Of a stretch of 33,607 nucleotides of DNA, positions 3,227 to 18,359 are shown piece by piece; the stretch's first letter is position 1; each line of letters begins with the position of its first letter. The stretch is taken from positions 1-33,607 of the IMG/VR virus record IMGVR_UViG_3300010371_000082; one strand, 5' to 3'. The translations under genes were made by a program, and so were the position numbers. The stretch comes from a virus. The notes beneath the pieces were generated by a model. That model did not search any database and was not told where the DNA came from. It worked only from the letters and a program-made list of their open reading frames with translations.

Positions 3227-3522
3227 GCGCCTGCCTCGTCGAGGCCCGCACCGGCAGGCCCTGCGCGAGCTGCATGCGGCGGTATCTGTCCCGGGGCCCG
3301 CAGGTGGGCGGCAGTCGATACCAAACCGCTCGCGCCTCCGGCATGTGCGGCTGGTGCCGGCATCGGCCGGCCGGTCGCGGGGCGCTGTGTCCCGGCTGCT
3401 ACGACAAACAGGCTGCCCGCAACCGGAAGATCCCCCGCAAGACGGGGCGTCGCTGGATCTGCCGCAACTGCGATGGGCGCGGCCACTCGGCCAAGACGTG
3501 CCACCTCGGGTCAACGGCATGA
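3223..3522 (+). CDS. zinc-binding protein with C-terminal CCHC knuckle
   Basis: The start is the ATG at 3223, which overlaps the previous stop. The 99-residue protein has CASC (residues 14-17), CGWC with a following CPGC (a four-Cys ribbon), a basic linker (NRKIPRKTGRRW), and then CRNCDGRGHSAKTC, a perfect C-x2-C-x4-H-x4-C zinc knuckle. Such knuckles bind single-stranded RNA or DNA in retroviral nucleocapsid and related cellular proteins; they are less usual in phages. The role is unknown, but single-stranded nucleic-acid binding is a reasonable inference. Downstream gene overlap is ATGA. Confidence 0.65.
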   Translation: MSACLVEARTGRPCASCMRRYLSRGPQVGGSRYQTARASGMCGWCRHRPAGRGALCPGCYDKQAARNRKIPRKTGRRWICRNCDGRGHSAKTCHLGSTA

Positions 3523-3767
3523 GCGCGCCCGTTGTTTTACGTGGAACCTCGGCTATTTCGACCTACGTCGTCGTCCGTCTGCCGCACGGAGACGGCATGG
3601 CGCGCAAGCCCCCGGCGCTGGCGCGGCTCCTCTCGCGGTCGGGGGGCAAGGTCACCGTGAGCCTGCGGCGCGGGCACCGCGCGTGGGCGGGACCGCGGGA
3701 GCTGGACGCCTCGGCAGTGATACGAGAGGCGACGCCGCGGGAGGTGACGTTGGGGTTTCCGGTCTAG
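3519..3767 (+). CDS. small basic hypothetical protein, last gene of early plus operon
   Basis: The 82-residue frame starts at an ATG in the previous stop. It is Arg/Pro rich, with repeated short beta-strand patterns (STYVVVRLPHG, GKVTVSLRRGH), and I recognise no family. It ends at 3767 where the convergent minus-strand operon ends, and its last codons lie over one arm of ribozyme A on the opposite strand. This is the last gene before the strand switch. Confidence 0.55.
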   Translation: MSAPVVLRGTSAISTYVVVRLPHGDGMARKPPALARLLSRSGGKVTVSLRRGHRAWAGPRELDASAVIREATPREVTLGFPV

Positions 3768-3824
3768 GGTCTCATCAGCGCCGGCATTACCGGCGGACGG
3801 GGCTCGCGCCCCGTTTCGGCCTAG
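3764..3824 (-). ncRNA. type II hammerhead ribozyme A
   Basis: Read on the minus strand from 3824 down, all conserved hammerhead elements are present in type II order. Stem II 5' arm ends in C (3818), then GAA (3817-3815). Stem III is seven pairs, 3814-3808 with 3803-3797, starting with the required A-U pair and closed by a GCGA tetraloop. The cleavage-site C is at 3796. Stem I is six pairs, 3795-3790 with 3784-3779, loop UAAUG. CUGAUGA follows (3778-3772), then the G of stem II (3771). Stem II has the core C-G pair, a small internal loop, and five outer pairs (3824-3820 with 3768-3764). Predicted cleavage is between 3796 and 3795. The TAG stop of the upstream gene (3823-3821) is inside stem II. 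Confidence 0.93.
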
Positions 3825-4012
3825 TATGCGCCGCAGGTGCAGTTCGCGTCGGGCGTCTCGTAGTCCCAGCAGACGCACGCGGCGCGGCCGATGACCTTGC
3901 GGAGTTCGCGGCGTTTATCGCGCTCTTCGATGCGTCTCGTCCCCTTGTCCGGACTCCCTTCAGGGTCTCTCTGTCGGTCACAGGGACCGGCGGAGGTGCA
4001 GGGGGAGGTCAT
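3821..4012 (-). CDS. small Cys-rich protein, third gene of ribozyme-bracketed cassette
   Basis: The 63-residue frame starts at an ATG overlapping the upstream stop (ATGA on the minus strand) and ends with TAG within ribozyme A. The sequence has two N-terminal cysteines, a charged central helix (RRIEERDKRRELRKV), and a C-terminal cluster CVCWDYETPDANCTCG. I recognise no family. The four C-terminal cysteines could bind a metal. Its exact overlap with the upstream gene and position between two ribozymes argue that it is a real cassette member. Confidence 0.6.
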   Translation of the reverse strand: MTSPCTSAGPCDRQRDPEGSPDKGTRRIEERDKRRELRKVIGRAACVCWDYETPDANCTCGAY

Positions 4013-4251
4013 CAGCGCCACCGGGCCGCGCCGTGCGTGCGCCCGTAGGGAGGCCAGATCGGCTCGCCATCCAGCGATGCGAGCCGATCGTTGCGTCGCC
4101 TGGCGATCACCGCCGAGGTGATGCCGCCGCGAGCTCTTATGACGCGGTTCCGCTCCTCGACATCCGACTCGGCCTCCGACTCTGTCGCTCGGACAGGCCC
4201 CGACCAGTCGGTCAGGGTCTCGTAGGCGCGATACTCTCCGCCGCCGCCCAT
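4012..4251 (-). CDS. small hypothetical protein, second cassette gene
   Basis: The start chosen is the ATG at 4251, which overlaps the upstream TAA by one base (TAATG); an ATG five codons earlier would overlap more. The 79-residue protein begins MGGGGEYRAYETL, has an acidic middle, and then a basic segment (VIRARGGITSAVIARRRNDRL). I recognise no family. It lies wholly within the 706-nt RNA that would be released by the two ribozymes. Confidence 0.6.
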   Translation of the reverse strand: MGGGGEYRAYETLTDWSGPVRATESEAESDVEERNRVIRARGGITSAVIARRRNDRLASLDGEPIWPPYGRTHGAARWR

Positions 4252-4448
4252 TATGCAACCTCCCACTCACGGACCTGGTGGCTGCCGTCGAGCGCGGTCC
4301 GCGCCGCCTCAAGATCGTCGTCGTCGATGGTCACGATAACGACCTTGCCTCCGTTGTGCTTCGCACTCGCGCTCCGGATGTCGGCCAGTATGTCGGCCCG
4401 GCGAGCGTCAGAATTGTTCGTCATCACGATCCGCAGCTTCGTCGTCAT
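4251..4448 (-). CDS. small alpha/beta protein, first cassette gene
   Basis: The 65-residue protein starts MTTKLRIVMTN. The ATG at 4448 is chosen because AAGGAG (4460-4455) lies six bases upstream; earlier in-frame ATGs sit on or before that site. The body is a short ferredoxin-like pattern: strand, helix (ARRADILADIRSASAK), strand (KVVIVTID), an acidic DDDD turn, then helix. It could be a small regulator but no family is recognised. The ribosome-binding site lies 13 bases beyond ribozyme B, so this would be the first gene read on the released RNA. Confidence 0.65.
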   Translation of the reverse strand: MTTKLRIVMTNNSDARRADILADIRSASAKHNGGKVVIVTIDDDDLEAARTALDGSHQVREWEVA

Positions 4449-4473
4449 CGTCATCTCCTTGTTGGCGTCCATC

Positions 4474-4527
4474 GGGCTCATCAGTCGGCGCACTACGCCG
4501 AGACGCGGCCGCAGCCGCGTTTCGCCC
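4474..4527 (-). ncRNA. type II hammerhead ribozyme B
   Basis: Read on the minus strand from 4527 down: stem II 5' arm GGGC (4527-4524), GAA (4523-4521), stem III of seven pairs (4520-4514 with 4509-4503, A-U first, loop UGCG), cleavage-site C at 4502, stem I of six pairs (4501-4496 with 4490-4485, loop UAGUG), CUGAUGA (4484-4478), and stem II 3' arm GCCC (4477-4474), a perfect four-pair stem. Every invariant core base is present. Compared with ribozyme A, five of six stem I pairs and one stem III pair differ but still pair. Predicted cleavage is between 4502 and 4501. It begins at the last base of the TAG stop (4529-4527) of the secreted-protein gene. Confidence 0.95.
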
Positions 4528-4775
4528 TACCTGTACGACGTCTTCCGTCCGCCGTGGCTCCGTGCGGGCGAGCCATCCGCCCAGGAAGCCACGCCACCGT
4601 GTCCCGAGCAAGCCCCCCGGTGCTCCGCCGGGTTGGTGCCCATCATGGTCTTGCCGTCGTTGCAGGTGGCCACGGGGACGAGCTCCGGTTTCTTGGTGGC
4701 GGCCGGCGCGGCGAGCGCCAGCGAACCCGAGAAGGCGGCGAGCGAGAGAGCGAGGATGGCGATGCGGATTTTCAT
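4527..4775 (-). CDS. secreted DUF3761-like protein with signal peptide
   Basis: The 82-residue protein starts at an ATG with AAAGGA six bases upstream. Residues 1-23 form a classic signal peptide: MKIRIAI basic start, hydrophobic core, then SLALAAPA with a likely signal-peptidase I site after Ala22 or Ala23. The mature part has ATCNDGKTMMGTN and GACSGHGGVASW, the pattern of the small DUF3761 family (C-x-D-G, a gap, then G-A-C-x-x-H-G-G-V). Cys38 and Cys56 could form a disulfide in the periplasm or outside the cell. DUF3761 function is unknown. A secreted protein in an early phage operon suggests modification of the host envelope or exclusion of other phages, which is inference. The stop runs into ribozyme B. 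Confidence 0.75.
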   Translation of the reverse strand: MKIRIAILALSLAAFSGSLALAAPAATKKPELVPVATCNDGKTMMGTNPAEHRGACSGHGGVASWADGSPARSHGGRKTSYR

Positions 4776-4822: not shown

Positions 4823-5248
4823 TCACTCTTGGGTATCGCAGGGCGCGTCGGCATCGTTGCCGCGTGCGTGGCCGGCGCAGAGGCAGCCCATCGAGGCGGC
4901 GCACGGCGGGACGCGCTCCGGCTGCTGCGCGAGGTCGATAAACTGCTGCACGTAGCGGCGTGCCTCCCATCGGTCGCGGCAGACACCGGACTCGTCGAGG
5001 AGAAGCGCCAACGCCTCGGCCGTCCCTTCGAGGTGCGGCTTACTCTCCGAGATGCAGGCGACAAACGCGCGCGCGGCGTCCAGCTGCAGGCCGCAGGCAT
5101 CACAGGGATCGGCGTCCGCGTCCGCGACCTCCAAAAGGAATTCTCGGACCTCATCCGTCTCGATCTGAAGACCACTACACGCGGTGGCGCGATAGATCTC
5201 GTTCTCCATCGTGAGCGCTTGGTTTTGGATCTCGGTGAGAGTGGCCAT
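4823..5248 (-). CDS. Cys-rich hypothetical protein, first gene of minus operon
   Basis: The 141-residue protein starts at MATLTEIQ. The ATG at 5248 is chosen because AGGAGG lies seven bases upstream, and the ATG ten codons earlier has no such site. The protein is acidic with many cysteines: DPCDACG in the middle, a CRDRWEARRYVQQF helix, and PPCAASMGCLCAG near the C-terminus. Early sequence is helical (IQNQALTMENEIYRA). I recognise no family; metal binding by the cysteines is possible. It is the first gene after the divergent promoter region, so it and the four downstream genes probably form one transcript. Confidence 0.65.
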   Translation of the reverse strand: MATLTEIQNQALTMENEIYRATACSGLQIETDEVREFLLEVADADADPCDACGLQLDAARAFVACISESKPHLEGTAEALALLLDESGVCRDRWEARRYVQQFIDLAQQPERVPPCAASMGCLCAGHARGNDADAPCDTQE

Positions 5249-9531: not shown

Positions 9532-11027
9532 CGGTCGCATTCGTCAATGACGGCAGATTTCGCGGCCCATTCCCGGGCCAGCAGACGAAGTTTTTCGAGT
9601 GCTCGGCGCGTGAGATCTTCTATGGCGGCGCCGGTGGTGGTGGAAAGTCGATCTGCGGGATGGGGAAGTTCGGGCAGCAGCTCGCCGTCGAGCGCGAGCG
9701 CTGCGAGCGCGGAGAGATCACGAAGTCAAAGGCATGGGGGATGTACTTCCGGCGCACGATGCCTGACCTCGTGCAGGCGATTGACAGGTCGCACCAGTTC
9801 TTCAAGGACATCGACCCCGACGCCGAGTACAACGTCAACGGCCACATCTGGACGATCCCGAGCTGCGGAGACGCGAAGTTTCAGTTCGGGCACATCGAGA
9901 ACGAGAGCAGCAAGTACAAGTACAAGTCGGCGGAGTGGACGTACATCTTCGTCGACGAGCTGACCGAGTTCACGGAGACCATGTACGAGTACATGGACAC
10001 CCGCCTCCGCACGACAGATCCGGTGCTCCAGGGGATGCTTCAGATCTGCTCCGGCTCGAACCCCGACGGCCCCGGCCTCCTCTGGGTGCGCAAGCGCTTC
10101 GTCGAAGGGAAGGAGCCCGAGATCATCTACCGCCGGATGATGAAGCTCCGGGACGGCAGGAAGATCCCGTACGAGACCACGTTTATTCCCGCGCGCCTCA
10201 AGGACAACCCCGTCCTCATGGAGGCCGGAACCTACGAGGCGTCGCTCCTGACCAAACGGCCCGAGGTGCGGCGGGCGATTCTCGACGGCGACTGGTACAT
10301 CAACCCCGGCGCCTTCTTCGCCGAGAGCTGGGACCCACGCTACCACGTCGTCCCGAACCACGAGGTTCCGAGGAATGCTCACGTCTTCCGGTCCTGTGAC
10401 CCCGGCCTCTCGGCTCCTTCCTCGGTGACCTGGTGGTACGTCGATCGCAACGGCGCCTTCACCGCGATCCACAACCTCTACGTCAAGGGACACGACGCCG
10501 CGATGCTGGCCGGCCGAATCCGCGAAGTGGAGATTCACTACGGCTGGTGGGACGAGGAGGCGAACGTCTCTCGCCTCTCCGGCCCCATCGACGAGGACGC
10601 CTTCTCCCGTAACCTGGCCGGCGGCCCCAGCTACTCCAAGGTGATGGCGTCCTGCGGCGTCCGCTGGGTCCGGTCGAAGAAGGACCGCTTCAACGGCACC
10701 GCCGAGATGCTGCGCCGGATGAACGCGCGCTACAAGCCCCTGCACCCGGGCGAGGACGACGTTGCGGGTATCCGGTGGATGGAGCGGTGCAAGGCTCCGA
10801 TCGAAACGATCCCCGTCTTGCAGGCCGACAAGAACGACCCCGACGACGTGGACACCAAGGGGGAGGACCATGCGTTCGACGACACTCGGTACGCCTGCAT
10901 GTACCGGACCCTGCGCCGGACTGAGGCATTGACAGACGACGACGATGATGACCGTGTCATCGACATGAGCAAGTACCGCCGCTCGGGCACCGACGGGCGC
11001 CTTATGGAGCCGCCGGGGGGCTGGTGA
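9528..11027 (+). CDS. terL: terminase large subunit
   Basis: The 499-residue protein is the packaging motor: an N-terminal ATPase drives DNA into the procapsid and a C-terminal RNase H-like nuclease cuts the concatemer. Walker A is GGAGGGGKS (residues 33-41), Walker B is YIFVDE (139-144) with catalytic Glu144, the coupling motif is SGSNP (175-179), and LDGDW (252-256) precedes the nuclease. Nuclease acidic residues include Asp291 in SCDPG, an IDEDAF segment, and DHAFDDTRY near the C-terminus. Length is typical. The start is a TTG overlapping the previous stop (TTGA). The C-terminus has a DDDDDD run that may contact the portal or be disordered. Confidence 0.92.
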   Translation: MTVAFVNDGRFRGPFPGQQTKFFECSAREIFYGGAGGGGKSICGMGKFGQQLAVERERCERGEITKSKAWGMYFRRTMPDLVQAIDRSHQFFKDIDPDAEYNVNGHIWTIPSCGDAKFQFGHIENESSKYKYKSAEWTYIFVDELTEFTETMYEYMDTRLRTTDPVLQGMLQICSGSNPDGPGLLWVRKRFVEGKEPEIIYRRMMKLRDGRKIPYETTFIPARLKDNPVLMEAGTYEASLLTKRPEVRRAILDGDWYINPGAFFAESWDPRYHVVPNHEVPRNAHVFRSCDPGLSAPSSVTWWYVDRNGAFTAIHNLYVKGHDAAMLAGRIREVEIHYGWWDEEANVSRLSGPIDEDAFSRNLAGGPSYSKVMASCGVRWVRSKKDRFNGTAEMLRRMNARYKPLHPGEDDVAGIRWMERCKAPIETIPVLQADKNDPDDVDTKGEDHAFDDTRYACMYRTLRRTEALTDDDDDDRVIDMSKYRRSGTDGRLMEPPGGW

Positions 11028-17426: not shown

Positions 17427-18359
17427 ATGCCCATCCAGGACATCAACCTCAATGGCCCGATCGTCATCCCGTCGATCGGCGCCTTGGACCTGCCGACCGG
17501 CGGGAACGTCCGCTACGTCTACCAGGACGCGAACGGCAACGGCATCGCCTCGCTCTCCAACGTCACGGCGAGCCTCCAGGACGCGAGCGACCTGACGGTC
17601 GCGGCCGCCTTCGGAAGGTGCCGCGCCAATCGGGGGGACCGCATCATCGTCCTCCCTGGTCACGTCGAGGCGATCGCGACCACCGGCTGGCCGGTGGTCG
17701 CGGGCGTCACGGTCATCAGTCTCGGCAACGACGACAGCGACATGCCGAACTTCAACTGGACGGCCGCGGGTTCGAACATCGCGTTCAACGCCAAGGGCGT
17801 CCGGGTGATCGGCGGCGTCTTCAACTTCGCCGTCACCGCGGCCACGAACGTCGCCGAGGCCTGCACCATCTCCGCGGCCACGCGCTTCGAGCGCCTGAAG
17901 GTCATCTTCTCGACCTCCAGCACCGTCACCTGCACGAACGGCTTCAACTTCGTGACCGGGGCGGATCGCTCGGGGTTCGACTCCTGCTACGGCGTCGGAA
18001 ACGCGGCGGGCGCCTCGAAGCCGATCTTGCTGACCAACGCCATCGACAGCTTCTCGTGCAAGCGGTCGACGTTCATCGCGGGGACCTCGGGGACCGGACA
18101 GGGCGTCATCCAGGCGGCGGCAGCGGCCACCAACTGGACGATGGACGACTGCGTCTTCCTCAACTCCATCACGAGCTCCACGGCGGCGGTCGTCGGGTTC
18201 GCCGGGGCGACGGGGTTCTTCTCGTACGTCCTGGCCGGCATCACCGCCGCGACGGGCGGCGCGACAGCCATCGGCACCCCCGGCAACATCGTCATGGCCC
18301 AATGCTTCGGCGGTGTCCTCGGCAAGGACGCCATCGCCATCACCCCGGCCTCCGGCTAA
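17427..18359 (+). CDS. beta-helix-like virion protein, first of a pair
   Basis: The 310-residue protein follows the capsid gene with a good AAGGAG site. After a short N-terminal region it has GDRIIVLPGHVEAI, then many short alternating strands rich in Val, Ala, Thr and Gly (VRVIGGVFNFAV, FERLKVIFSTSSTV), as in right-handed beta-helices. The next gene shares this layout, so the two look like a tandem duplication. Likely surface proteins of the head or fibre. No catalytic motif is seen. Confidence 0.65.
   Translation: MPIQDINLNGPIVIPSIGALDLPTGGNVRYVYQDANGNGIASLSNVTASLQDASDLTVAAAFGRCRANRGDRIIVLPGHVEAIATTGWPVVAGVTVISLGNDDSDMPNFNWTAAGSNIAFNAKGVRVIGGVFNFAVTAATNVAEACTISAATRFERLKVIFSTSSTVTCTNGFNFVTGADRSGFDSCYGVGNAAGASKPILLTNAIDSFSCKRSTFIAGTSGTGQGVIQAAAAATNWTMDDCVFLNSITSSTAAVVGFAGATGFFSYVLAGITAATGGATAIGTPGNIVMAQCFGGVLGKDAIAITPASG

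Follow-up and report, generated by a model that had tools for sequence, protein, structure and literature searches.

What could two hammerhead ribozymes, small self-cleaving RNAs, do on the same strand of a phage genome, one on either side of a block of three small genes? The question is raised by a stretch of 33,607 nucleotides, hereafter designated as the window, which covers positions 1 to 33,607 of the IMG/VR virus record IMGVR_UViG_3300010371_000082. A previous reading of the letters alone (the sequence-only reading) had proposed that the pair sits in a phage context, and this was borne out by genes found in the window, namely a terminase large subunit (TerL), a head-closure protein and a tail spike. 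The TerL product is ca. 30 to 33% identical to the TerLs of Pelagibacter, Roseobacter and Puniceispirillum phages, and no similarity of the ribozyme region to known phages was found at the DNA level.

Anatomy and gene context of the hammerhead pair

Read on the minus strand, the two elements (HHR1 and HHR2, Table 1) display the same succession of GAAA, a closed stem III, UC, a closed stem I and CUGAUGA, with stem II being open. The invariant core (C3 U4 G5 A6 N7 G8 A9, G12 A13 A14, the A15.1-U16.1 pair and H17) is complete in both copies. The core-adjacent pairs 10.1-11.1, 1.1-2.1 and 15.1-16.1, a requirement according to Perreault et al. 2011 (PMC3088659), are intact in both as well. Five of the six stem I pairs are changed on both sides between HHR1 and HHR2 with pairing kept, and in stem III one pair of seven is G-C in one copy and C-G in the other. 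Direct reading of the sequence confirmed the sequence-only reading on each of these points, that is, the location and strand of the two elements, their type II order, their full core and the pair changes that preserve stems I and III; the cut sites that it expected, 3796/3795 and 4502/4501, also hold as predictions. For both RNAs, folding to minimum free energy yields the hammerhead (z -2.7 and -2.8). The motif CTGATGA occurs a third time in this region, at minus-strand position 4015, and was rejected there as a further ribozyme, since it is the stop/start overlap of genes D and E and has no stems.

Among 4227 Rfam families searched with E-values up to 1, RF02276 (Hammerhead_II) was the only one that matched the window, and it did so at exactly two places. 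The match at 4527-4470 (HHR2) scored 34.9 bits, with an E-value of 0.0013 for the whole window and 5.4e-5 for the sub-region, and the match at 3821-3763 (HHR1) scored 32.7 bits (0.005 and 2.1e-4, respectively). Both scores are 2 to 4 bits below the Rfam gathering score of 37 bits, which is a curation threshold and not a biochemical definition, and a default Rfam scan of the window is silent for this reason. The significant covariance-model match anticipated by the sequence-only reading was thus obtained as far as the E-values are concerned, while neither copy reached the gathering score. No other Rfam family, including other ribozymes, was found in the window or in the fetched stretches of four relatives. 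A strict descriptor (full core, A15.1-U16.1, H17, stems I and III) retrieved HHR1 and HHR2 and no other place in the window, versus a single match when the whole window was dinucleotide-shuffled 300 times. Together, the core, the stem order, the cut sites and the significant RF02276 E-values support the assignment to type II.

Pairing between loop I and the 3' tail is part of the Rfam consensus; it is common in the class without being required, and a loop I-tail complement is present in most of 145 phage copies. In HHR1 and HHR2, loop I is a five-base UNNNG, and no complement of at least 3 bases was found that could form this pseudoknot with the 3' tail. Five-base UNNNG loops (e.g. UAGUG, UAAUG, UAGGG, UUAGG) define a subclass represented by the window pair, the relative L003 and the array of contig G007 (see below). 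The window pair shares with RF02276 the core letters, the three stems with an open stem II, the order of the elements and the cut site, but differs by this UNNNG loop I devoid of a tail pseudoknot, which probably explains the sub-threshold scores. Since the subclass without pseudoknot can be missed by default Rfam cut-offs, the number of these ribozymes in phage genomes is probably underestimated.

The pair is embedded in a minus-strand operon of small genes, in the order A-B-HHR2-C-D-E-HHR1, each gene having the best codon score of the six frames. Gene A had no match in Pfam. Gene B matched PF12587 with an E-value of 7.6e-6, slightly under the Pfam cut-off, and has homologues in the relatives L003 and L004; no known-phage protein matches were found for genes B, C and D. 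HHR2 starts at the TAG that ends gene B (4529-4527), and the AAGGAG Shine-Dalgarno (SD) sequence of gene C (4460-4455) is located directly 3' of it. At the other end of the block, the TAG that ends gene E (3823-3821) falls inside stem II of HHR1. Genes C, D and E look translationally coupled, and the overlaps at the C-D and D-E junctions leave no space for a ribozyme. Beyond HHR1 lies a convergent plus-strand gene whose stop meets the edge of the ribozyme, so that HHR1 takes up the space left where the minus-strand unit ends. The RNA predicted to be released by the two cuts would consist of the stem I hairpin of HHR2, the SD, C-D-E, and GAAA with the stem III hairpin of HHR1. No terminator or sigma-70 promoter adjoining the ribozymes was found in the window. 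Just upstream of gene A (5400-5265), the window contains three or four GTATAGCG-type copies, one of which is the inverted repeat GTATAGCGTTTGCTATAC; these repeats might be the operator or promoter region of the operon.

Table 1. Position of the hammerheads, their parts and the neighbouring genes in the window
Feature	Position	Strand	Remarks
Gene A	4823-5248	minus	141 aa, no assigned function; AGGAGG-like SD; best codon score
Gene B	4527-4775	minus	82 aa, DUF3761-like, signal-peptide-like N terminus; stop adjoins HHR2
HHR2, type II hammerhead	4470-4529	minus	RF02276, 34.9 bits; predicted cut C4502/U4501
HHR2 GAAA	4523-4520	minus	
HHR2 stem III	4520-4503	minus	7 bp
HHR2 C17	4502	minus	
HHR2 stem I	4501-4485	minus	6 bp, loop UAGUG
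HHR2 CUGAUGA	4484-4478	minus	
HHR2 stem II		minus	GGGC/GCCC, 4 bp
Gene C	4251-4448	minus	65 aa, first gene of the predicted released unit; best codon score
Gene D	4012-4251	minus	79 aa, start overlaps the stop of C (TAATG); best codon score
Gene E	3821-4012	minus	63 aa, start overlaps the stop of D (TGATG); best codon score
HHR1, type II hammerhead	3764-3824	minus	RF02276, 32.7 bits; predicted cut C3796/C3795
HHR1 GAAA	3817-3814	minus	
HHR1 stem III	3814-3797	minus	7 bp, loop GCGA
HHR1 C17	3796	minus	
HHR1 stem I	3795-3779	minus	6 bp, loop UAAUG
HHR1 CUGAUGA	3778-3772	minus	
HHR1 stem II		minus	C3818-G3771 pair, 1x2 internal loop, then CUAGG/CCUAG
Convergent gene	3519-3767	plus	82 aa, best of six frames; stop meets the 3' edge of HHR1
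Predicted released RNA	3796-4501	minus	706 nt, deduced from the two cut sites

Distribution in relatives and in other viral contigs

Terminase searches revealed five relatives of the window phage, then two more distant ones. In the relative L003 (TerL 74% identical), a type II hammerhead of 40.4 bits adjoins the stop codon of the DUF3761 homologue and precedes AAGGAG and ATG, which is the same junction as that of HHR2 in the window. Three genes beyond this intact copy is a decayed hammerhead (17544-17607 of the contig; 4864-4812, minus strand; 11.9 bits), in which stem I, CUGAUGAG and a stem II holding the stop codon are kept, and which is followed by an SD and ATG. This decayed copy was rejected as an active ribozyme, being devoid of stem III and of the A15.1-U16.1 pair and having a G in place of H17. 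The relative L004 (70%) has kept the DUF3761 gene, followed by a plain hairpin instead of a ribozyme (2189-2150, minus strand); a ribozyme is thus found after this gene in two of the three phages seen with it (the window and L003, not L004). Chance-level RF02276 matches aside, no hammerhead was found in the records of L004, L006 and L007. Given the plain hairpin of L004 and the three records without hammerhead, the element is, as far as these genomes tell, one that comes and goes and that the clade can do without. A further hammerhead, preceded by a stop and followed by an SD-ATG, occurs in the relative G018 (49%). Weak RF02276 matches in the relatives G003 (16.6 bits, without GAAA) and G005 (13.0 and 10.6 bits) are regarded as chance level, since the search also gives matches in control genomes, including E. 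coli.

A type II hammerhead pattern was then run over viral contigs, the counts being those of a sample, the matches listed. One hammerhead was counted per locus, the window and L003 were left out, and a copy was scored as flanked when it was preceded on the same strand by a stop ending a frame of 40 or more codons and followed within 60 nt by an SD-start. Among the matches listed, 54 of 72 hammerheads were flanked in this manner on their own strand, as compared with 0 of 73 on the opposite strand and 41 of 1480 random places (2.8%). Looser limits applied to all copies gave 105 of 139 versus 5.4%, again among the matches listed. At the commonest distance in this sample, the stop codon lies no more than a few bases from the core-side end of stem II, and every copy of the multi-copy contigs listed is on one strand. 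The placement suggests that hammerheads may be a regular gene-separating device in many phages.

Long arrays were also identified. Contig G006 (L136, IMGVR_UViG_3300017605_000570), a tailed-phage sequence of 57 kb that encodes terminase, portal, protease and major head protein, contains 24 type II hammerheads on the minus strand between 9932 and 17520 (7.6 kb), and whole-record searches gave 10 matches in G007 and 9 in G015. Almost every interval in G006 is occupied by one gene, which has its SD (GAGGUG or similar) behind the preceding ribozyme and its stop in contact with the next. In an alignment of 20 G006 copies, 99.7% of the pairs are kept and 70 double-sided changes were counted (shuffled mean 20), this covariation including a compensated change in the loop I-tail pseudoknot. 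Stem II is constant within arrays such as that of G006.

A proposed role in mRNA processing

With a probability of roughly 80%, we consider both elements of the window to be real type II hammerheads that would process a minus-strand polycistronic mRNA into protected gene blocks, a judgement drawn from their sequence, fold and placement and from their recurrence in other phages. The mRNA-processing role is proposed because the position relative to stop codon and SD is common to many phages. The bond cut in type II hammerheads has a closed hairpin on either side. The HHR2 cut would separate A-B from C-D-E and the HHR1 cut would trim the 3' end downstream of E, at the boundary with the opposing gene, the two cuts freeing a three-gene mRNA (C-D-E) with a hairpin at each end. 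HHR1 is a trimmer only and cannot be a separator, since there is no downstream gene on its strand. From known hammerhead chemistry, cutting would leave a 2',3'-cyclic phosphate on the upstream mRNA, whose last structure would be the stem III hairpin, and a 5'-OH on the downstream mRNA, which would open with the stem I hairpin directly before the SD. Known RNase behaviour suggests that such structured ends would be hard for exonucleases and for the 5'-monophosphate-dependent RNase E, and the gene blocks would gain separate stabilities. Situated between stop and SD, a ribozyme would cut the polycistronic mRNA with both reading frames unharmed. With the stop codon inside stem II or beside it, a ribosome ending translation there would be expected to hold this stem open and to interfere with folding, which, like the sub-threshold scores, the dispensability of the element in the clade and the absence of a gene downstream of HHR1 on its strand, speaks against the proposed role. 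For the window pair, cleavage, the chemistry of the ends and the effects on stability or translation are predictions.

A broader proposal, towards which we lean slightly, is that many tailed phages carry a fixed stop-ribozyme-SD unit, up to one per gene, that would dice their operons, and that ribosomes can delay the cut. If true, operon transcripts would become mRNAs of one or a few genes, their 5'-OH and cyclic-phosphate ends protected by hairpins.

Other readings have to be weighed. It is unlikely that the elements are remnants of a spreading sequence, either inactive or neutral. The L003 copy without stem III and the L004 junction without element are consistent with such a history, but the window copies have kept the full core and both stems despite their sequence differences, the strict stop/SD placement in unrelated phages would be unexpected for neutral debris, and covariation is heavy in the arrays.

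Retrozymes are defined by type I or III hammerheads in repeats, a non-coding insert and a circular RNA intermediate. Those of plants (type III) and animals (type I) resemble the window pair in that two hammerheads share a strand at a distance of a few hundred bases; the pair differs by its type II hammerheads, non-repeated flanks, protein-coding content and location in a phage genome. With type II hammerheads, phage genes on the flanks and three coding frames in the insert, the pair was rejected as a retrozyme. It is also quite improbable that the hammerheads excise the 706-nt RNA for ligation into a retrozyme-like circle carrying C-D-E. Such a scheme would account for a single block between two same-strand hammerheads, which are able to ligate, and the constant stem II of arrays such as that of G006 means that neighbouring halves could re-form a hammerhead. 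However, the stem IIs of the window differ (GGGC/GCCC vs CUAGG.C/G.CCUAG), so that the halves present on the excised RNA match poorly, and circular or spliced products were sought by Perreault et al. 2011 (PMC3088659) and none were found.

The structures might also act uncut, as hairpins that insulate the translation of neighbouring genes or stop 3' exonucleases. Each element does comprise two strong GC hairpins, and a plain hairpin occupies the same junction in L004, but hairpins of this kind would not need GAAA, CUGAUGA, H17 and A15.1-U16.1, all of which are kept, and we regard this reading as very improbable. A chance resemblance in a GC-rich genome, to which both scores below the Rfam gathering score could point, is hardly credible in view of the shuffled windows, of the whole-window E-values over all families with no other family matching, and of the 40.4-bit hammerhead found at the same position in L003.

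Known systems and cultured phages

Natural type II hammerheads were discovered by Perreault et al. 2011 (PMC3088659). The sequence-only reading took the occurrence of hammerheads in some phages and bacteria as established. In Figure 3 of the 2011 paper, clustered prophage hammerheads flank genes or short blocks, as in an Agrobacterium triple around ardA, in Azorhizobium and in Clostridium scindens, and its authors proposed that long phage transcripts become operon- or gene-length mRNAs. Their tandem prophage hammerheads cleaved in vitro, those of Agrobacterium also in E. coli. The window pair is similar to these clusters, with several hammerheads close together on one strand of a phage genome, around a gene or a short gene block, but differs in the phage and in the genes, which are DUF3761-like upstream and three small genes inside. 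The general arrangement, clustered hammerheads flanking prophage genes, is already known since 2011. The role of prokaryotic hammerheads was presented as an open question in a later review (PMC6155905). Stop codons, Shine-Dalgarno sequences and ribosomes are unmentioned in the text of Perreault et al. 2011 (PMC3088659), and no description of arrays of 10 to 24 copies was found there. Relative to the open-licence literature, what is added here is a layout in which stop, ribozyme and SD have a fixed order, together with the long arrays and with cultured phages that carry such arrays. The strict stop/SD placement argues for a role of the hammerheads in cutting operon mRNA into gene-sized messages, and the layout makes their disputed function testable.

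Cultured phages were reached by DNA search with the G006 array. Type II hammerheads, themselves unannotated, were found between annotated genes in the Streptomyces phages Salutena (12 copies; MT708548.1, 37921-47357) and Marav (13 copies; OQ995441.1, 40820-49689), and of the 20 copies examined in the two phages, 19 are clear of annotated genes. Rhodobacter phage RcWaterboi (MW677528.1) has one unannotated type II hammerhead of 65.8 bits at 10392-10462 (genes 19/20). No annotated features were found under the matches in these three phages. The announcement of Salutena (PMC8407740) mentions neither ribozyme nor hammerhead and reports a single terminator. With about a dozen copies each, the cultured Streptomyces phages make direct testing possible. 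RcWaterboi has Mu-like genes, which fits the association of ribozymes with Mu-like phages described in the literature. In Marav, two hammerheads are placed back to back in one gap, at 49555-49620 and 49622-49689.
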